From positions 100,020,480 to 100,084,479 of the forward strand of contig NC_064825.1 in NCBI RefSeq assembly GCF_024166365.1: a DNA stretch of 64,000 bases. Reading direction: 5' to 3'. The notes under the pieces are model-generated. The model saw nothing but the letters and a program-made list of their open reading frames with translations, ran no database searches and was not told the DNA's origin. This document shows positions 17,260-51,569 of the stretch, piece by piece. The DNA comes from Elephas maximus indicus (Eukaryota; Chordata; Mammalia; Proboscidea; Elephantidae). Position 1 is the first letter of the stretch, and each line of letters opens with the position of its first letter. The position numbers and the translations under genes were made by a program.

Positions 17260-19222
17260 GAGACCGTTATTTTACAACGGATGATCATATAGTCTACTAT
17301 GCTGTGAATGACAACTTGAAGAGGAATGGTGTTGCATTCATCATCAGAAAGAACATTTCAAGATCCATCCTGAAGTACAACACTGTCAGTGATAGGATAA
17401 TATCCATACTCCTACAAGGAAGACCAGTTAATACAACAAAAAGATTCAAATTTACGCACCAACCGCTAAGGTCAAAGATGAAGAAATTGAAGATTTTTAT
17501 CAGCTTCTGTAGCCTGAAATTGATCAAACATGCAATCAGAATGCATTGATAATTACTGGTGATTGGAATGCGAAAGTTGGAAATAAAGAAGGATCGGTCG
17601 TTGGAAAATATGGCCTTGGTGACAGAAACAATGCCAGAGATCGAATGATAGAATTTTGCAAGACCAACAACTTCTTCATTGCAAATACCTTTTTTCACCA
17701 ACATAAAAGGTGGCTGTACACATGGACTTTGCCAGATGGAATACACAGGAATCAAATCGACTACATCTGTGGAAAGAGACGATGGAAAAGCTCAATATCA
17801 TCAGTCAGAACAAGCAAGAGGCTGAATGTGGAACAGACCATCAGTTGCTCATATGCAAGTTCAAGTTGAAATTGATGAAAATCAGAGCAAGTTCACCAGG
17901 ACCAAAATATGACCTTGAGTATATCCCACCTGAATTTAGAGACCATTTCAAGAATAGATTTGATGCATAGATTTGATGCACTGAACACTAATGACCAAAG
18001 ACCAGATGAGTTGTGGAATGATATCAAGGACATCATACATGAAGAAAGCAAGAGGTCATTGAAAAGACAGGAAGGAAAAAAAAGATCAAGACGAATCTCA
18101 GGAGAGACTCTGAAACTTGCTCTCAAACTTTCAGCAGCTAAAGCAAAAGGAAGAAATGATGAAGTAAAAGAACTGAACAAAAGATTTCAAAGGGTGGCTC
18201 AAGAAGACAAAGTAAAGTATTATAATAATATGTGCAAAAACTAGGGATAGAGAATCAAAATGGGAGAATGCATTCAGCATTTCTCAAACTGAAAGAACTA
18301 AAGTAAAAATTCAAGCCTTGAATTGGAGTAATGAAGGATTCTATGGGGAAAACATTAAACAACTCAGGAAGCATCAAAAGAAGATGGAAGGAATACACAG
18401 AATCATTATACCAAAAAGAATTAGTCGATGTTCAACCATATCAAGAGGTAGCATATGATCAGGAACCGATGGTACTGAAGGAAGAAGTCCAAGCTGCACT
18501 GAAGGCATTGGCGAAAGACAAGGCTCCAGGAATTGACGGAATATCAACTGAGATGTTTCAACAAACAAACGTAGTGCTAGAAGAGCTCACTTGTCTATGT
18601 CAAGAAATTTGGAAGACAGCTACCTGGCCAACCAACTGGAAGAGATCCATATTTATGCCCAGTCCTAAGAAAGGTGATCCTAATGAATGCAGAAATTATC
18701 AAACAATATCATTAATATCACATGCAAGCAAAATTTTGCTGAAGATCATTCCAAAGTGCCTGCAGCAGTATATCTATAGGGAACTGTCAGAAATTCAGGC
18801 CAGATTCAGAAGAGGATGTGGAACCAGGGATATCATTGCTGATGTCAGATGAATCCTGGTTGAAAGCAGAGAATACCAGAAAGCTGTTTACCTGTGTTTT
18901 ATCAACTACGCAAAGGTATTTGACTGTGTGGATCATAAGAAATTATGGATAACATTGTGAAGGATGGGAATTCCAGAACACTTAATTGTGCTCATGAGGA
19001 GCCTGTACGTAGATCAAGAGGAAGTTGTTCGGACAGAACAAAGAGATACTGAGTGGTTTAAAGTCAGGAAGGTGTGTGTCAGGGTTGTATCCTTTCACCA
19101 AACATGTTCAATCTGTATGCTGAGCAAATAATCCAAGAAGCTAGACTGTATGAAAAAGAATGGGGCATCAGGATTGGAGGAAGACTCATTAACAACCTTC
19201 ATTATACAGATGACACAATCTT

Positions 19223-21929
19223 TTTTTTTTTAAATAGTTTTTATTGAGCTTTAAGTGAACGTTTACAAATCAAGTCAGTCACATATAAGCTTATACACAC
19301 CTTACTCCATACTCCCACTTACTCTCCCCCTAATGAGTCAGCCCTTCCAGTCTCTTCTTTCATGACAATTTTGCCAGTTTCTAACCCTCTCTACCCTCGC
19401 ATCTCCCCTCCAGACAGGAGATGCCAACACAGTCTCAAGTGTCTACCTGATACAAGTAGCTCACTCTTCATCAGCATCTCTCTCCAACCCATTGTCCAGT
19501 CCCTTCCATGTCTGATGAGTTGTTTTCAGGAATGGTTCCTGTCCTGGGCCAATAGAAGGTTTGGGGACCATGACCGCCAGGATTCCTCTAGTCTTAGTCA
19601 GACCATTAAGTCTGGTCTTTTTATGAGAATTTGGGGTCTGCATCCCACTATTCTCCTGCTCCCTCAGGGGTTCTCTGTTGTGCTCCCTGTCAGGGCAGTC
19701 ATCAGTTGTGGCTGGGCACCATCTAGTTCTTCTGGTCTCAGGATGATGTAAGTCTCTGGTTCATGTGGCCCTTTCTGTCTCTTGGGCTCAGAGTTATCGT
19801 GTGACCTTGGTGTCCTTCATTCTCCTTTGATCTAGTTGGGTTGAGACCAATTGATGCATCTTAGATGGCCGCTTGTTAGCATTTAAGACCCCAGATGCCA
19901 CATTTCAAAGTGGGATGCAGAATGTTTTCATAATAGAATTATTTTGCCAATTGACTTAGATGTCCCCTTAAGCCATAGTCCCCAAACCCCCGCCCTTGCT
20001 CCGCTGACCTTTGAAGCATTCAGTTTATCCTGGAAACTTCTTTGCTTTTGGTCCAGTCCAGTTGAGCTGACCTTCCGTGTATTGAGTATTGTCCTTCCCT
20101 TCACCTAAAGTAGTTCTTATCTACTAACTAATCAGTAAATAACTCTCTCCCACCCTTCCTCCCTCCCCCCCTCGTAACCACAAAAGTATGTGTTCTTCTC
20201 AGTTTATACTATTTCTCAAGATCTTCTAATAGTGGTCTTATACAATATTTGTCCTTTTGCCTCTGACTAATTTCACTCACCATGATGCCTTCCAGGTTCC
20301 TCCATGTTATGAAATGTTTCACAGATTCCTCATTGTTCTTTATCGATGCGTAGTATTCCATTGTGTGAATATACAACAATTTATTTACCCATTCATCCGT
20401 TGATGGACACCTTGGTTGCTTCCAGCTTTTTGCTATTGTAAACAGAGCTGCAATAAACATGGGATTGCATATATCTGTTCGTGTGAAGGCTCTTATTTCT
20501 CTAGGGTATATTCCGAGGAGTGGGATTTCTGGTTTGTATGGTAGTTCTATTTCTAAGTTTTTAAGAAAACGCCAGATAGATTTCCAAAGTGGTTGTACCA
20601 TTTTACATTCCCACCAGCAGTGTATAAGAGTTCCAATCTCTCTGCAGCCTCTCCAACATTTATTATTGTGTGTTTTTTGGATTAATGCCAGCTTTGTTGG
20701 AGTGAGATGGAATCTCATCGTAGCTTTAATTTGCATTTCTCTAATGGCTAATGATCAAGAGCATTTTCTCATGTACCTGTTAGCTGCTTGAATATCTTCT
20801 TTAGTGAAGTGCGTGTTCATATCCTTTGCCCACGTCTTGATTGGGTTGTTTGTCTTTTTGTGGTTGAGTTTTAACAGAATCATATAGATTTTAGAGATCA
20901 GGTGCTGATCAGAGATGTCATAGCTGAAAATTCTTTCCCAGTCTGTAGGTGGTCTTTTTACTCTTTTGGTGAAGTCTTTAGATGAGCATAGGTGTTTGAT
21001 TTTTAGGAGCTCCCAGTTGTCTGGTTTTTCTTCATCCTTTTTGGTAATATTTTGTATTCTGTTTATGCCTTGTATTAGGGCTCCTAACGTTGTCCCTATT
21101 TTTTCTTCCATGATCTTTATCGTTTTAGTCTTTTTGTTTAGGTCTTTGATCCACTTGGAGTTAGTTTTTGTGCATGGTGTGAGGTATGGGTCCTGTTTCA
21201 TTTTTTTGCAAATGGATATCCAGTTATGCCAGCACCACTTGTTAAAAAGACTATCTTTTCCCCAATTAACTGACACTGGGCCTTTGTCAAATATCAGCTG
21301 CTCCTATGTGGATGGATTTATATCTGGGTTCTCATTTCTGTTCCATGGGTCTATGTGCCTGTTGTTGTACCAGTACCAGGCTGTTTTGACTACTGTGGCT
21401 GTATAATAGGTTCTAAAATCAGGTAGAGTGAAGCCTCCCACTTTCTTCTTCTTTTTCAGTAATGCTTTACTTATCCGAGGCTTCTTTCCCTTCCATATGA
21501 AGTTGGTGATTTGTTTCTCCAACACCTTAAAAAATGTCATTGGAATTTGGATCGGAAGTGCATGGTATGTATAGATGGCTTTTGGTAGAATAGACATTTT
21601 TACTATGTTAAGTCTTCCTATCCATGAGTAAGGTATGTTTTTCCACTTAAGTAGGTCCTTTCTAGTTTGTTGCAGTAGTACTTTGTAGTTTTCTTAGTAT
21701 AGGTCTTTTACATCTTTGGTAAGATTTATTCCTAAGTATTTTATCTTCTTGGGGGCTACTGTGAATGGTATTGATTTGATGATTTCCTCTTCGATGTTCT
21801 TTTTGTTGATATAGAGGAATCCAAGTGATTTTTGTATGTTTATCTTATAACCTGAGACTCTGCCAAACTCTTCTATTAGTTTCAGTAGTTTTCTGGAGGA
21901 TTCCTTAGGGTTTTCTGTATAAGATCATG
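19223..21929 (-). mobile_element. L1, 5'-truncated, inserted in RTE
   Basis: Minus-strand L1 with its poly-A at the left edge (T-run 19,221-19,230), a 3' UTR of about 985 bp, and ORF2 C-terminal coding. Perfect AGATGACACAATCTT at 19,208-19,222 and 21,930-21,944 marks the target-site duplication. About 2.7 kb of a normal 6-kb L1. High similarity to the copies at 1-475 and 48,522-51,569 indicates a relatively young subfamily. Confidence 0.95.
20209..21900 (-). pseudogene. L1 ORF2 C-terminal fragment
   Basis: Encodes the part of L1 ORF2 after the RT fingers/palm. Three frames follow one another on the minus strand: 21,304-21,597 ([32 protein letters not shown]), 20,755-21,276 (the conserved [13 protein letters not shown] and [13 protein letters not shown] text) and 20,209-20,736, which ends at the natural stop and contains the C-terminal zinc-knuckle-type Cys/His cluster ([18 protein letters not shown], matching C-x3-C-x7-H-x4-C). 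Small frameshifts separate them, and the endonuclease and catalytic RT motifs are missing through 5' truncation. No activity expected. Confidence 0.9.
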
Positions 21930-22709
21930 AGATGACACAATCTTGCTTGCTGAAAGTGAAAAGGACCTGAAGCACTTACTAATGAAGATCAAAGACCACA
22001 GCCTTCAGTATGGATTGCACCTCAACATAAAGAAAACAAAAATCCTCACAACTGGACAAATAAGCCACATCATGATAAACAGAGAAAAGATTGAAGTTGT
22101 CAAAGATTTCGTTTTACTTGGATCCACCATCAACACCCATGGAAGCAGCAATCAAGAAATCAAAAGACGCATTGCATTGGGCAAATCTGCTGCAAAGGAC
22201 CTCTTTAAAGTGTTGAAAAGCAAAGATATTACCTTGAAGACTAAGGTGCACCTGACCCAAGCCATGGTGTTTTCAATCGCCTCATATGCATGTGAAAGCT
22301 GAGCAATGAATCAGGAAGATCGAAGAAGAATTGACGCCTTTGAATTGTGGTGTTGGCGAAGAGTATTGAATATACCATGGACTGCCAAAAGAATGAACAA
22401 ATCTGTCTTGAAGAAGAACGCTCCTGAGAAGGAAGGATGGTGAGCCTGTGTCTTACATACTTTAGACATGTTGTCAGGAGGGATCAGTCCCTGGAGAAGG
22501 ACATCATGCTTGGTAAAGTACAGGTTTAGCAGAAAAGAGGAAAACCCTCAATGAGATGAATTGATACAGTGGCTGCAACAATGGGCTCAAGCGTAACAAC
22601 GATTGTAAGGATGGCACAGGACCGGGCAGGGTTTCGTTCTGTGGTATGTAAGTTCACTATGAGTTGGAACCAACTCAACGGCACCTAACAACAACAACAA
22701 TAACAACCT

Positions 22710-36147: not shown

Positions 36148-36300
36148 AAAAAAAAAAATAGCAGTGGACTAAATAAGATAGGCATTTATTTATCTGCCCC
36201 ATTACATTATAGTCCGAGGACAGGACATGGCAGCCCAGTGGTATTGAAGACCAGGCTTATCCTATTGCCCTTACCTGAAAGGATGGAGATGGCTTATCAC
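36148..36300 (-). mobile_element. unassigned repeat, copy A part 1
   Basis: The reverse complement of about 36,190-36,300 aligns with 41,493-41,605 (shared CTCCATCCTT.CAGGTAAG, GCCTGGTCTTCAA, GGGCTGCCAT.TCCTG). Copy A continues at 39,443 after the U6-L1 insertion. Likely an old LTR or DNA transposon; not named. Confidence 0.6.
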
Positions 36301-36315
36301 CACGTAAGCATTTTT

Positions 36316-39300
36316 TTCTATTGTGCTTTAAGTGAAAGCTTACAGCTCAAGTTAGTTTCTCATACAAAAATTTATACACACATTGTTATGTGACCCTAGT
36401 TGCTATCCCCATAATATGTCAGCGCATTCCTCCTTTCCATCCTGGATTTCCCATGTCCATTCAACCAGCTCCTGTCCCTTTCTGCCTTCTCATCTCCCCT
36501 CTGGGCAGGAGCTACCCACTTAGTTTCATATATCTACTTGAACTAAGAAGCACACTCTTCACAAGTATAATTTTATGTCTTATATTGCGGTCTAATTTTT
36601 GTCTGAAGAGTTGGCTTCAGGAATGGTTTTAGTTCTGGGTTACCAGAGAGTCCAGGGGCTGTGTCTTCTGGGGTTCCTCCAGTCTCAATCAGACCATTAA
36701 GTCTGGTCTTTTTACTAGAATTTAAGTTCTGCACCCCACTTTTTTCCTGCTTCATCAGGGACTCTCTGTTGTGTTCCCTGTCAGGGCGGTCATTGGTGGT
36801 AGCTGGGCACCATCTAGTTCTTCTGGTCTCAGGCTAATGGAGTCTCTGGTTTAAACCCATTGAATTGCTGTGGAGTCGGGTCCAATACATAGCGACCCTA
36901 TAGGACAGAGTACAACTGCCCCATAGAGTTCCCAAGGAGCGCCTGGTGGATTTGAACTGCTGACTTTTTGGCTAGCAGCCATAGCACTTCACCACTACGC
37001 CACCAGGGTTTCCGTCTCTGGTTTATGTGGCCCTTTTTGTTTCTTGGGCTAATATTTTCCTCGTGTCTTTGGTGTTCTTCATTCTCCTTTGCTCCAGGTG
37101 GATTGGGACCAATTGATGCATTTTAGATGGCCACTCGCTAGATTTTAAGACCCCAGATACCACTCACCAAAGTGGGATGCAGAACATTTTCTTAATAAAC
37201 TTTGTTATGCCAATTGACCTAGATGTCCCCTGAAACCATGGTCCCCAGACCCCCACCCCTGCTACTCTGTCCCTCAAAGTGTTTTGTTTTATTCAGGAAA
37301 CTTCTTAGCTTTTGGTTTAGTCCAGTTATGCTGACTTCCCCTGTATTGTGTGTTGCCCTTCCTTTCATCTAAAATAAGTCTTGTCTACAATCTAATTAGT
37401 GAACACCCATCTCCCTCCCTCCCTACCCTCATAACCATCTGTGTTTAAACCTCTTCTTGAGTTCTTCTAATAGTGGTCTCCTACAATACTTGCCCTTTTG
37501 CAACTGACTGATTTCACTCAGCATAATGCCTTCCAGAACCCTTCATGTTATGAGATGTTTCTCAGATTCATTGTTGTTCTTCATCGGTGCATAGTATTCC
37601 ATTGTGTGAATATACCATAATTTGTTTATCCATTCATCCTTTGATGGGCATCTAGGTTGTTTCTATTGCGAACAATGCTGCGATGAACATGGGTGTGCAT
37701 ATATCTGTGTGACGGCTCTTATTTCTCCAGGATATATTCAAAGGAGTGGGATTCCTGGATCGTATGTATGGTACTTCTATTTCTCCTACATTTATTGTTT
37801 TGTGTTTTTTGGATTAATGCTAATCTTATTGGGGTGAGATGGTATCTTTTTGCAGTTTTGATTGCATTTCTCTAATGGCTAATGATCATGAGCATTTCCT
37901 CGTGTCTGTTAGCTACTTGAATGTCTTCTTTGGTGAAGTGCCTGTTCATATCCTTTGCCTATTTTTTAATTGGGTTATTTGTCTTTTTGTTGTTGAGTTT
38001 TTGCAGTATCTTGTAGATTTTAGAGATTAGACCCTGATCTGATATGTCACAGCCAAAAATTTTTTCCCAGTCTGTAGGTTGTCTTTTTACTTTTTGGGTG
38101 AAGTCTTTTGATGAGCATAAGTGTTTGATTTTTAGGAGCTCCCAGTTATCTAGTTTCTCTTCTGGTGTTTGTGCATTGTTAGTAATGTTTTGTATTCTGT
38201 TTATACCATGCATTAGGGCTCCTAGCATTGCCCCTATTTTTTCCTCCATCATCTTTATCGTTTTAGATTTTATATTTAGGCCTTTGATTCATTTTGAGTT
38301 AGTTTTTGTGCATGGTGTGAGGTATGGGTCTTGTTTCATTTTTTCGCAGGTGGATATCTAGTTATGCCAGCGCCATTTGTTGAAGAGACTGTCTTTCCCC
38401 CATTTAACTGACTTTGGGCCTTTGTCAAATATCAGCTGCTCATATGTGGATGGATTTATGTCTGGATTCTCAATTCTGTCCCATTGGTTTATGTGTCTGT
38501 TGTTGTACAAGTACCAGGCTGTTTTGACTACTGTGGTGGTATAACAGGTTCTAAAATCAGGCAGTGCGAGGTCTCCCACTTTGTTCTTCTTCGTCAGTAA
38601 TGCTTTACTTATCTAGGGCCTCTTCCCTTTCCAAATCAAGTTGATGATTTGTTTCTCCGTCTCATTAAAAAATGTCATTGGAATTTGGATCTGGATTGCA
38701 CTGTATCTGTAGATCACTTTGGGTAGAAGTGGCGTTTTCACAATGTTGAGTCTTCCTATCCATGAGGAAGGTATGTTTTTCCACTTAAGTAGGTCTCTTT
38801 TAGTTTCTTGCAGTAGCGTCTTGTAGTTTTCTTTGTATAGGTCTTTTACCTCTCTGATTAGATTTATTCCTAAGTATTTTATCTTCTTGGGGGCTATTGT
38901 AAATGGTATTGATTTGGTGATTTCCTCTTCGAAGTTCTCCTTGTTGGTGTTGAGGAATCCAACTGATTTTTGTATGTTTATCTTATATCCTGATACTTTG
39001 CTGAAATCTTCTATTAGTTCCAGTAGTTTTCTTGTGAATTCTTTGGGATTTTCTGTCTATAAGATCATATCATCTGCAAATAGGGATACTTTTACTTCTT
39101 CCTTATCAATTTGGATGCCCTTTATTTTTTTTTCCAGCCTAATTGCTCTGGATGGGACCTCGGCACAATGCTTCATAAGAGTAGTCATAAAGGGCATCCT
39201 TTGTCTGGTTCCTATTCTCAAGGGGAATGCTTTCAGACTCTCTCCATTTAGGATGATGTTGGCTGTTGGCTTTGTATAAATGTGTATCATTACGTTGAGG

Positions 39301-39335
39301 AATTTCCCTTCTATTCTTATTTCACTGAGAGTTTT
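36316..39335 (-). mobile_element. L1 part of the chimera, 5'-truncated
   Basis: 3' UTR at left (TTCTATTGTGCTTTAAGTG, GGGATGCAGAACATTTTC) and ORF2 C-terminal two-thirds at right. Interrupted by an AfroSINE at 36,854-37,013. The last L1 base at the U6 junction is about 39,335, within the RT domain. Confidence 0.93.
36854..37013 (-). mobile_element. AfroSINE inside the L1
   Basis: Complete minus copy (AACCCATTGAATTGCTGTGG ... GCCACCAGGGTTTCC). GTCTCTGGTTTA at 36,842-36,853 is repeated at 37,014-37,025, a 12-bp duplication. It postdates the U6-L1 insertion. Confidence 0.95.
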
Positions 39336-39407
39336 AAAAACATGGAATGCTTCATGAATTTGGGTGTCATCCTTGCACAGGGGCCATGCTAATTTTCTCT
39401 GTATCAT
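37959..39407 (-). pseudogene. L1 ORF2 fragment fused to U6
   Basis: The frame at 39,057-39,407 begins with 24 codons read from the U6 segment and passes in frame into L1 RT text (KTLSEIRIEGKFLN, ANIILNGESLKAFPLR, then the catalytic SLFADDMIL near 39,065). Downstream ORF2 blocks occur at 38,358-38,579 ([32 protein letters not shown]) and 37,959-38,252 (the IGAMLGALMHGINRIQNI and KIKHLCSSKDF text). The C-terminal Cys/His cluster is degraded around 37.6-37.9 kb. Frameshifts and an early stop at about 39,057 disable it. The in-frame U6 fusion is a by-product of the join, with no evidence of translation. Confidence 0.85.
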
Positions 39408-39442
39408 TCCAATTTTAGTATATGGGCTGCTGGAGTGAGCAC
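39336..39442 (-). pseudogene. RNU6 (pseudogene): U6 snRNA pseudogene, full length, at L1 5' junction
   Basis: 107 nt on the minus strand align end to end with U6 spliceosomal RNA: 5' GTGCTC start, ATATACTAAAATTGGAA, the ACAGAGA box, ATTAGCATGGCCCCTG, CAAGGATGACAC, and a terminal T-run. About a dozen substitutions, most at former CpG sites (for example in the 5' stem GCTTCGG region). There is no U6-type proximal element or TATA box on its upstream side (right of 39,457 on the plus strand), and the 3' end joins L1 directly. It is therefore a retrotransposed copy and not an snRNA gene. Confidence 0.95.
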
Positions 39443-39690
39443 CATGTAAGCATTTTTGTCAACATAAAAGAGGAAGAAATGGAGGGGAGGACATGCCCCT
39501 TCCTTTTATAGGCACAACCACAGAAGTTGCACATATCACTTATCCTCACATATCAGTGGCCAGAACTTGGCTACATGCCATGCCTAGCTGCAAGGGAGGT
39601 TGGGAAATGCAGTCTTTGGCTGAGTAGCCAGGTGCCCAGGTAAAAATTCCTCAGCATGGAAAAAGGGGAAAGTGCATACTGGGGGAAAAT
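39443..39690 (-). mobile_element. unassigned repeat, copy A part 2
   Basis: Continuation of copy A. Its reverse complement matches 41,268-41,492: GAATTTTTACCTGGGCAC, GACTGCATTTCCCA, GGCATGTAGCCAAGTTCTGGCC, AGCTTCTGTGGTTGT. The two copies are inverted relative to each other and about 1.6 kb apart. Confidence 0.6.
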
Positions 39691-39728: not shown

Positions 39729-41003
39729 TGTTATGGATGGAATTGTGACCTCCCCAAATATCTATCAACTAGGTTTCAGGTTACTAGGTTAGGCTAAGCC
39801 GTGGTGCTCAGTTTTGTGTGGTCGTCCTCCACTTTGTGATCTGACGTGATTACCCTTTGTGTTATAAATCCTAACCTAACCTCTGTGATGTTAATGAGGC
39901 AGGATTAGAGGCAGTTATGTTAATGAAGCAAGACTCAATCTGCAGGATTTGGTTGTATCTTTTTTTTTATAATTTTTATTGTGCTTTAAGTGAAAGTTTA
40001 CACATCAAATCAGTCTCTCACATAAAAACCCACATACACCTTGCTACATACTCCCAATTACTTTCCCCCTAATGAGACAGCTCGCTCTCTCCCTCCACTC
40101 TCTCTTTTCGTGTCCATTTTGCCAGCTTCTAACCCCCTCCGCCCTCTCATCTCCCCTCCAGGAAGAGATGCCAACATAGTCTCAAGTGTTCACCTGATCC
40201 AGGAAGCTCATTCCTCACCAGCATCCTTCTCCAACCCGTTGTCCAGTCCAATCCATGTCTGAAGTGATGGCTTTGGGAATGGTTCCTGTCCTGGGCCAAC
40301 AGAAGATCTGGGGGCCATGACCACTGGGGTCCTTCTAGTCTCAGTCAGACCATTAAGTCTGGCCTTATGAGAATTTGAAGTCTGCATCCCACTGCTCTCC
40401 TGCTCCCTCAGAGGTTCTCAGTTGTGTTCCCTGTCAGGGCAGTCATTGGTTATAGCTGGGTACCATCTAGCTCTTCTGGTCTCCGGATGATGTAGTCTCT
40501 GGCTCATGTGGCCCTTTCTGTCTCTTGGGCTCATAATCGTCTTGTGTCCTTGGTGTTCTTCATTCTCCTTTGATCCAGGTGGGTTGAGACCAATTGATGC
40601 ATCTTAGATGGCTGCTTGCTAGCGTTTAAGACCCCAGACACCACTCTTCAAAGTGGGATGCAGAATGTTTTGGATTTGGTTGTATCTTGAGTCAGTATCT
40701 TTTGAGCTACAAAATAGAGAATCAAGCAGAAAGGGAGGGGCCTCATACCACCAAGAAAGAAATGCTGGGAGCATAGTGTGTCCTTTAGGCCCAGGGTCCT
40801 TGTGCTGAGAAGCTCCTAGACCAGGGGAAGGTTGATTGCAAGGACCTTCCCCCAGAGCCAAGAGAACGCGAAAGCCTTCTCCTGGAGCTGGTTCCTCTGA
40901 ATTCAGACTTCCAGTGCCCTAGACTGTGACAGAATAAATTTCTGTTTGTTAAAGCCATCCATTTGAGGTATTTCTGTTATAGCAGCACTAAATAACTAAG
41001 AAA
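39729..41003 (+). mobile_element. MaLR/ERVL-type solo LTR interrupted by L1
   Basis: TGTTATGGATGGAATTGTGACC start; ends ...AACTAAGAAA. CCTTA at 39,724-39,728 and 41,004-41,008 is a perfect 5-bp duplication. AATAAA at 40,933-40,938. An L1 3' fragment occupies 39,962-40,671. Without it the LTR is about 550 bp, matching the other family members. Confidence 0.93.
39962..40671 (-). mobile_element. L1 3' UTR fragment in LTR
   Basis: Poly-A end at left (T-run 39,958-39,969) and truncated at GATGCAGAATGTTTT on the right. Perfect 17-bp duplication GGATTTGGTTGTATCTT at 39,945-39,961 and 40,672-40,688. Only 3' UTR, no coding. Confidence 0.95.
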
Positions 41004-47945: not shown

Positions 47946-48029
47946 CTGCCTCTGTAAGATGAGAGGCAGTCTTCTCCCACCCCCTACAGATCTCTCAGTG
48001 TGGTAAAGAACACCAAGAGAAGGATTTTT

Positions 48030-48505
48030 TTGTGTGCTTTAAGTGAAAGTTTACAAATCAAGGCAGTCTCTCATACAAAAATTTATATACATCTTGCTAT
48101 ATACTCCTAGTTCCTCTCCCCCTAATGAGACAGCACAATCTTTCTCTCCACCCTCTATTTCCATGTCCATTCAGCCAACTTCTGACCCCCTCTGTCTTCT
48201 CATCTCCCCTCCAGACAGGAGCTGCCCACATAGTCTCATGTGTTTACTTGAGCCAAGAGCTCACTCCTCACCAGTATCATTTTCTATTTTATAGTCCAGT
48301 CCAATCTCTGAAGAGCTGGCTTTGGAAATGGCTCCTGTCTTGGGCTAACAGAAGGTCTGGGGACCATGACCTCCGGGGTCCTTCTAGTCTCAATCAGACC
48401 ATTAAGCCTGGTCTTTGTATGAGAATTTGAAGTCTGCATCCCACTGCTCTTCTGCTCCTTCAGGGGTTCTCTGTTGTGTTCCCTGTCAGGGCAGGCATCA
48501 GTTGT
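48030..48505 (-). mobile_element. L1 3' UTR fragment, first insertion
   Basis: GTGTGCTTTAAGTGAAAGTTTAC at the poly-A end through GGGTTCTCTGTTGTGTTCCC to CAGGCATCAGTTGT, truncated in the 3' UTR. The left flank AAGAGAAGGATTTTT (48,015-48,029) resembles the sequence at its right edge. Confidence 0.88.
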
Positions 48506-48521
48506 AAGGAGAATAATTTTT

Positions 48522-51500
48522 TTTTTTTTTAATAATTTTTATTGTGCTTTAAATGAAAGTTTACAAATCAAGTCAGTCTCTCACACAAAAACCCACATAC
48601 ACCTTGCTACACACTCCCAGTTACTCTCCCCATAATGAGACAGCCTGCTCTCTCTTTCCACTCTCTCTTTTCGTGTCCTTTTCGCCAGCTTCTAACCCCC
48701 TCCACCCTCTCATCTCCCCTCCAGCCAGGAGATGCCAACACAGTCTCAAGTGTCCACCTGATCCAGGAAACTCACTCCTCACCAGCATCCCTCTCCAACC
48801 CATTGTCCAGTCCAATCCATGTCTGAAGAGTTGGCTTCAGGAATGGTTCCTGTCCTGGGGCAACAGAAGGTCTGGGGGCCATGACCACCGGGGTCCTTCC
48901 AGTCTCAGTCAGACCATTAAGTCTGGTCTTATGAGAATTTGGGGTCTGCATCCCACTGCTCTCCTGCTCCCTCAGGGGTTCTCTGTTGTGTTCCCTGTCA
49001 TGGCAGTCATCGGTTGTAGCCGGGCACCATCTAGTTCTTCTGGTCTCAGGATGATGTAGTCGCTGGTTCATGTGGCCCTTTCTGTCTCTTGGGCTCATAA
49101 TTATCGTGTGACCTTGGTGTTCTTTATTCTCCTTTGATCCAGGTGGGTTGAGACCAATTGATGCATCTTAGATGGCTGCTTGCTAGCGTTTAAGACCCCA
49201 GACACCACTCTTCAAAGTGGGATGCAGAATGTTTTCTTAATAGATTTTATTATGCCAATTGACTTAGATGTCCCCTGAAACCATGGTCTCCAGACCCCTG
49301 CCCCTGCTACGCTGGCCTCCGAAGCATTCAGTTTACTCAGGAAACTTCTTTGCTTCTGGTTTAGTCCGATTGTGCTGACCTCCCCTGTATTGTGTGCTGT
49401 CTTTCCCTTCACCTAGTTACCTACTATCTAATTAGTGAATATCCCTCTCCCACCCTCCCTCCCTTCCCCATCTTGTAACCACAAAAGAATGTTTTCTTCT
49501 CAGTTTAAACTATTTCTGAAGTTCTTATAATAGTGGTCTTACACAATATTTGTCTTTTTGCAACTGACTAATTTCACTCAGCATAATGCCTTCCAGATTC
49601 CTCCATGTTATGAAATGTTTCACAGATTCCTCACTGTTCTTTATCGATGCGTAGTATTCCTTATGTGAATATACCATAATTTATTTATCCATTCATCCGT
49701 TGATGGGCACCTTTGTTGCTTCCATCTTTTTGCTATTGTAAACAGTGCTGCAATAAACATGGGTGTGCATTTATCTGTTCGTGTAAAGGCTCTTATTTCT
49801 CTAGGATATATTCCAAGGAGTGGGATTGCTGGATTGTATAGTAGTCTTATTTCTAGCTTTTTAAGGAAGCGCCAAATCGATTTCCAAAGTGGTTGTACCA
49901 TTTGACATTCCCACCAGCAGTGTAGAAGTGTTCCAATCTCTCCACAGCCTCTCCAACATTTATTATTTTGTGTGTTTTGGATTAATGCCAGCCTTGTTGG
50001 AGTGAGGTGAAATCTCATTATAGTTTTGATCTGCATTTCTCTAATGGCTAATGATCGTGAACATTCCCTCATATATCTGTTAGCTACCTGAATGTCTTCT
50101 TTAGTGAAGTGTCTAGTCATAACTTTTGCCCATTTTTTAATTGGGTTATTTGTCTTTTCGCAGTTGAGTTTTTGCAGTATCATGTAGATTTTAGAGATCA
50201 GGCGCTGATCAGAAATGTCATAGCAAAAAACTTTTTCCCAGTCTATAGGTAGTGTTTTTATGCTTTTGGTGAAGTCTTTAGAAGAGCATAAGTGTTTGAT
50301 TTTAAGAGCTCCCAGTTATAAGTTTTTCTTCTACTTTCTTTATAATGTTTTCTATACTGTTTATGCCATGTATTAGGGCTCCTAACGTTGTCCCTATTTT
50401 TTCTTCCATGATCTTTATTGTTTTAGATTTTATATTTAGGTCTTTGATCCATTTTGAGTTTTTGTGCATGGAGTGAAGTATGGGTCTTGTTTCATTTTTT
50501 TGCAGACGGATATCCAGTTATGCCAGCACCATTTGTTAAAGAGACTGTCTTTTCCCCATTTAACTGGTTTTTTTTTAACTGTTTTAGGGCCTTTGTCAAA
50601 TATCAGCTGCTCATATGTGGATGGATTTATGTCTGGATTCTCAATTCTTTTCCAGTGGTCCATGTATCTGTTGTTGTACCAGTACCAGGCTGTTTTGACT
50701 ACTGTGGCAGTATAATAGGTTCTAAAATCAGGTAGAGGGAGGCCTCCCACTTTGTTCTTCTTTTTCAGTAATGCCTTATTTATCCCGGGCCTCTTTCCCT
50801 TCCATATGAAATTGGTGATTTGTTTCTCCATCTCATTAAAGAATGTCATTGGAATTTGGATCAGAATTGCATTAAATGTATAGATGGCTTTTGGTAGAAT
50901 AGACGTTTTTATAATGTTAAGTCTTCCTATCCACGAGCAAGATATGTTCTTCCACTTATGTAAGTCTCTTTTGGTTTCTTGCAGAAGCGTACTGTAGTTT
51001 TGTTTGTATAAGTCTTTTACATCTCTGGTAAGATTTATTCCTAAGTATTTTATGTTCTTGGGAGCTACTGTAAATGGCACTGGTTTGGTGATTTTCTCTT
51101 CGATGTTCTTTTTGTTGGTGTAGAGGAATCCAACTGATTTTTGTATGTTTATCTTGTGTCCCGATACTCTGCTGAACTCTTCTATTAGTTTCAGTAGTTT
51201 TCTGGAGGATTCCTTAGGGTTTTCTGTGTATAAGATATTGTCATCTGCAAACAGAGATACTTTGACTTCTTCCTTGCCAATCTGGATGCGCTTTATTTCT
51301 TTATCTAGCCTAACTGCTCTGGCTAAAACTTCCAGCACATTGTTGAATAAGAGTGGTAATAAAGGGCATCCTTGTCTGGTTCCCGATCTCAGTGGGAATG
51401 TTTTCAGACTCTCTCCATTTAGGGTGATGTTGGCTGTTGGCTTTGTATAAATGCCCTTTATTAGGTTGAGATATTTTCCTTCTATTCCTATTTTGGTGAG

Positions 51501-51569
51501 AGTTTTTATCATGAATGGGTGTTGGACTTTGTCAAATGCCTGTTCTGCATCAGTTGATAAAATCAAGTG
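48522..51569 (-). mobile_element. L1, 5'-truncated, second insertion
   Basis: 3.05-kb copy with T-run at 48,517-48,530, a full 3' UTR and ORF2 back to the RT domain. AAGGAGAATAATTTTT (48,506-48,521) and AAGGAGAAGAATTTTT (51,570-51,585) form the duplication, 15 of 16 identical. It sits exactly on the right edge of the earlier L1 fragment. Confidence 0.94.
49641..51568 (-). pseudogene. L1 ORF2 fragment with RT palm
   Basis: Longest coding relic in the window. The minus frame 50,436-51,596 (386 codons; the first dozen or so are host DNA) carries RT motif A text [30 protein letters not shown] and the catalytic [10 protein letters not shown] (FADD at residues 116-119), then the thumb-side [16 protein letters not shown] and [13 protein letters not shown]. 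After a frameshift near 50.2-50.43 kb the frame 49,641-50,183 gives the C-terminal [19 protein letters not shown] and the Cys/His cluster CWRGCGEIGTLLHCWWEC. Endonuclease and the RT fingers are absent through 5' truncation, so it cannot retrotranspose itself. Confidence 0.93.

Follow-up and report, generated by a model that had tools for sequence, protein, structure and literature searches.

Chimeric pseudogenes in which the U6 small nuclear RNA (snRNA) is joined to the retrotransposon LINE-1 (L1) were reportedly described by Buzdin in 2002 and 2003 and by Garcia-Perez in 2007. Their hallmarks, in the account of Law and Burns (2026, PMC13174262), are a full-length U6 in sense orientation that heads an L1, often a truncated one, together with a target-site duplication (TSD) and an endonuclease motif, and 180 such loci, 98.3% of them in sense orientation, are catalogued there for the human genome. 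Doucet et al. (2015, PMC4476161) conclude that in every mammalian genome they analysed L1 is able to mobilise U6. According to table 2 of that survey 10 of the 15 analysed U6 copies of the elephant are associated with a retrotransposon (11 of the 15 have a TSD), as are 9 of 65 copies in tenrec and 1 of 7 in hyrax, with the retrotransposon unnamed for the individual copy and the classes carrying an error estimated by the authors at under 5% to 15%; the survey used a cut-off of 97.5% identity. Here we analyse a locus of this type in Elephas maximus indicus, located within a stretch of 64,000 nucleotides of contig NC_064825.1 (assembly GCF_024166365.1, positions 100,020,480 to 100,084,479), hereafter called the window. 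The locus is very probably a non-functional U6/L1 chimeric retrocopy which was inserted once by the LINE-1 machinery.

An earlier reading of the bare sequence (the original prediction) had implied that this arrangement was new for the afrotherian lineage. This novelty does not hold, since the 2015 counts for elephant, tenrec and hyrax (PMC4476161, table 2) mean that copies of the U6/L1 type were already known in afrotherians. The focal copy itself is probably not among the elephant copies of that survey because its identity of 96/107 lies below the cut-off. In the literature searched on elephant, Loxodonta and Afrotheria in connection with U6 and chimeras, we found no paper on the focal locus, as judged from the title or the start of the abstract among the matches listed.

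The U6 and L1 parts of the composite

Read 5′ to 3′ on the minus strand, the region 36301–39457 consists of one copy of a duplication, U6, an L1 fragment and the second copy of the duplication (Table 1). U6 and the 5′-truncated L1 have the same orientation and are joined with zero spacer, as had been predicted: the terminal TTTTT of U6 is followed directly by the codon of the L1 open reading frame 2 (ORF2) that corresponds to human residue 615.

A cmscan search identified U6 (Rfam RF00026) at 39442–39336 on the minus strand with 99.6 bits and an E value of 1.2e-24. The match spans positions 1–105 of the 105 model positions, in agreement with the claim of a full-length U6, and is the sole Rfam match at the gathering score in the whole window. 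A BLAST search with the focal U6 returned no second U6 in the 64 kb, the next match being 16 nt long (E 0.21). When a mammalian U6 sequence is taken as yardstick, 11 of the 107 bases are changed (10.3%, 95% interval 5.2–17.7%); seven of these changes are found at the 14 CpG positions, and outside CpG 4 of 93 bases are changed (4.3%, interval 1.2–10.6%). The U6 retrocopy has no A-tail.

Full length and the retention of 96 of the 107 bases would also be expected of a functional U6 gene lying beside an L1 by chance. This candidate, for which a conserved sequence and a type-3 pol III promoter would be expected, was disfavoured on account of the 11 changes in 107 bases, promoter elements having been judged by eye. 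Moreover the duplicated target sequence starts at position −1, and therefore the sequence upstream of U6 is that of the pre-insertion site. That a working U6 gene is present at this place we regard as hardly credible.

The 42 codons adjoining U6 correspond to residues 615–656 of the human LINE-1 ORF2 protein (ORF2p; entry 8sxt, E 8.1e-10); five distinct sequences were matched in this search, four of which bear the name LINE-1 ORF2 protein and one RNA-directed DNA polymerase. In addition, a BLAST comparison showed that 36316–39335 can be aligned with other L1 stretches in the window, and these two results confirm the assignment of this part to L1. In one of these stretches, copy B, the sequence passes the junction point and continues for a further 63 nt before its own duplication begins. 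There, 42 codons spanning the junction point match residues 594–634 of human ORF2p without a break (E 9.4e-13). Since ORF2 runs unbroken through this point in copy B, the join of the focal copy lies inside ORF2 and not at a natural end of L1. Several stop codons lie in frame in the focal L1, and this L1 is non-functional.

The original prediction, in which 36316–39335 forms the L1 part, is inexact in that this part holds a short interspersed element (SINE) that arrived later and in that about 94 bp of ORF2 sequence carried by copies B and C have no counterpart in it. None of copies B, C and D has the nested SINE, which is flanked by an exact 12-bp repeat, GTCTCTGGTTTA; its insertion into the focal L1 came after the L1 insertion. 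This tRNA-type element is probably AfroSINE-like. AfroSINE is described as occurring in afrotherian genomes (PMC9223172). The gap of about 94 bp is most likely a later deletion. By eye, a few bases of homology are seen at its breakpoint (37767–37795).

The target-site duplication and the boundaries

The outer repeat (36301–36315 and 39443–39457), which was also returned by a repeat finder, is 15 bp long with 14 of 15 positions identical. The original prediction of a 15-bp duplication around the composite stands; the repeat grows to 18 bp with the same single mismatch (36298–36315 and 39440–39457) because the target and the start of U6 both read GTG in the sense direction. Due to this overlap the start of U6 is certain only from base 4. 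U6 had been said to reach its first base; the Rfam alignment does begin at model position 1, but bases 1–3 could equally belong to the target, leaving an ambiguity of 3 nt. The single difference between CACGTAAGCATTTTT and CATGTAAGCATTTTT is a CpG-type change.

As a chance control we used random pairs of 35-nt pieces of the 64-kb window, unscreened for known repeats, and obtained a run of at least 18 nt with at most one mismatch in 5 of 19,965 pairs. With up to two mismatches allowed, the left 15-mer is found in the 64-kb window nowhere but at its two places; the right 15-mer turns up at one more position, 61838.

We also looked for a separate duplication around U6 or L1 alone, which had been named beforehand as speaking against a single event, and found none: the inner junction matches either outer end over at most 5 nt exactly, or over 7 nt with one mismatch. 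Therefore no duplication belongs to U6 alone or to L1 alone, and the claim of a single-event chimera with readable boundaries is borne out. U6 pseudogenes are common, table 2 of Doucet et al. (PMC4476161) giving 779 BLAST hits with U6 in elephant, and chance could have placed a U6 pseudogene right at the 5′ edge of a truncated L1 that was already there, or a truncated L1 beside an older U6 pseudogene. However, it is only at the outer pair of ends that a long repeat (18 nt, one mismatch) is found, the inner junction offers nothing beyond the short matches just given, and U6 ends without an A-tail with its TTTTT directly on ORF2 sequence. Two independent insertions were rejected, as only the outermost ends have the long repeat in common, and we consider them very improbable.

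The reading as one chimeric insertion is supported by the complete sense U6, the start of L1 inside ORF2, the single shared duplication and the unbroken copy B without U6. Against it weigh the one CpG-type mismatch in the duplication, the nick site and the A-run. The nick site reads TTTTT/GT; its T half agrees with the L1 endonuclease motif (TT/AAAA, or TTTT/AA when read on the strand that is nicked), and its second half does not. The A-run at the 3′ end of the focal L1 is short with 7 nt, of which 2–7 lie outside the duplication, compared with 14, 11 and 9 nt in copies B, C and D.

Table 1. Features of the U6/L1 composite (positions in the 64-kb window)
Feature	Position	Strand	Remarks
Target-site duplication, U6 5′ side	39443..39457	-	CATGTAAGCATTTTT on the plus strand; 14/15 identical to the other copy
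GTG (sense), common to U6 start and target site	39440..39442	-	Origin ambiguous; included in the 18-bp run with one mismatch
U6 snRNA retrocopy, full-length	39336..39442	-	96/107 against mammalian U6; 3′ end TTTTT
Defective 5′-truncated LINE-1, starting within the ORF2 reverse-transcriptase region (residue 615 of human ORF2p) and including the L1 3′ end	36316..39335	-	
Gap of about 94 bp in ORF2 of the focal L1 relative to copies B and C	37767..37768	-	As placed by the aligner; position of the breakpoint known to within about 30 bp, judged by eye
Nested tRNA-type SINE	36854..37013	-	Exact 12-bp flanking repeat at 36842-36853 and 37014-37025
Run of seven A (sense), L1 3′ end	36311..36317	-	Five within the duplication; tail of 2-7 nt
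Target-site duplication, L1 3′ end	36301..36315	-	CACGTAAGCATTTTT on the plus strand

Other L1 copies in the window and the age of the insertion

Three further L1 copies with duplications of their own are present: copy B (body about 48522–51569; 16 bp, one mismatch), which lies 9–12 kb from the focal composite, copy C (about 19223–21929; 15 bp without mismatch) and copy D (about 39962–40671; 17 bp without mismatch). Leaving out the SINE, dropping gap columns and excluding flanking bases, the focal L1 is identical to copy B at 2347 of 2816 sites (469 different), to copy C at 2097 of 2569 (472 different), to copy D at 538 of 715 (177 different) and to fragment E (48033–48506) at 375 of 487 (112 different). 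Shorter L1 matches were returned by the BLAST search of the window near positions 1, 15752 and 16200. With identities of 75–83%, copies B, C and D are relatives of the focal L1 and not close sisters.

The BLAST search of the 64-kb window with U6 placed no U6 on copies B, C and D. U6 on other L1 copies of the same subfamily had been named beforehand as an observation that would speak against a single template-switch event. None is seen on the L1 copies of the window, but their low identity makes this a weak test of the focal L1's own subfamily. The same low identity leaves some room for a family of afrotherian L1 elements headed by U6 and propagated together with it, the source element being already fused to U6 and possibly transcribed with U6 at its 5′ end. 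An ancient U6-derived repeat in primates, reportedly described by Hasnaoui in 2009 and cited in PMC13174262, counts in the same direction. On the other side, there is no second U6 in 64 kb despite several L1 stretches, and U6/LINE-1 chimeras are described as usually not propagating themselves further (PMC13174262). We therefore give such a family very little credence.

Some further observations concern the neighbouring copies. Copy B directly adjoins the L1 fragment at 48033–48506 and seems to have inserted into it; its duplication reads AAGGAGAA(T/G)AATTTTT. That of copy C (19208–21944) is AGATGACACAATCTT, exact over 15 bp, and the sequence around this copy, judged by eye, has at the active-site motif the appearance of an RTE-type reverse-transcriptase gene. 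The A-run starts right after CACAATAG or CACAC in the focal L1 (36311–36335) and in the fragment at 48033 (48025–48045). Unlike in these two, some ten extra bases precede the A-run in copies B, C and D. The differing 3′ ends perhaps reflect different subfamilies.

U6, L1 and the duplication, the two copies of which differ at 1 of 15 positions, have decayed since the insertion. At the rates usual for mammals the divergence suggests an age of tens of millions of years for the composite, with an interval too wide to place it in the afrotherian tree. No function of the composite is apparent from its sequence.

Insertion mechanism and comparison with known chimeras

From the layout, the junctions and the duplication, which are observed directly, we infer the order and nature of the insertion steps as follows. 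The L1 endonuclease would have nicked the target at TTTTT/GT, and reverse transcription would have started at the A-rich 3′ end of the L1 RNA and proceeded to the middle of ORF2. From there it would have passed, with no gap, onto U6 at its 3′ end and copied it as far as the 5′ end. Joining to the second strand at the 3-nt match (GTG) would then have left the 15-bp duplication. The two sequences could have been joined in one of two ways: U6 RNA may have been ligated beforehand to a 5′-shortened L1 RNA, or the reverse transcriptase may have jumped.

The original prediction had allowed for template switching only. This mechanism was described for U6/L1 chimeras by Doucet et al. (2015, PMC4476161), but ligation is a published alternative which predicts the same anatomy: Law and Burns (2026, PMC13174262) list two possible routes, RNA ligation and template switching, with reference to Moldovan et al. 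(2019), and a review states that U6–L1 RNA ligation assists LINE-1 (PMC13247085). On reading the join, the end of the L1 complementary DNA (...GTTTT) is unable to pair with the U-run of U6, and no annealing is visible. This leads us to lean slightly towards ligation, with the template jump close behind and still compatible with the data. As both predict the same anatomy the sequence cannot separate them, and one locus settles nothing on this question.

The anatomy is like that of the Group IV U6/L1 chimeric pseudogenes as presented by Doucet et al. (2015, PMC4476161): a full-length sense U6, a 5′-truncated L1, no spacer and one TSD. The differences of the focal copy from this group are mere details: a divergence of about 10%, an identity below the 97.5% cut-off, a short tail, the nested SINE and the deletion. 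Older copies of this kind, below the cut-off of 2015, could help to count chimera formation over time. Related L1 sequence (75–83% identity) and duplications of 15–17 bp link the locus to the ordinary 5′-truncated copies B, C and D, which, unlike the focal L1, have no U6 at the 5′ end. The same layout is found in the 180 human U6/LINE-1 loci catalogued by Law and Burns (PMC13174262), the focal locus being afrotherian and those being human. Compared with these systems, the locus is an ordinary if clean example of the U6/L1 anatomy in an afrotherian genome.
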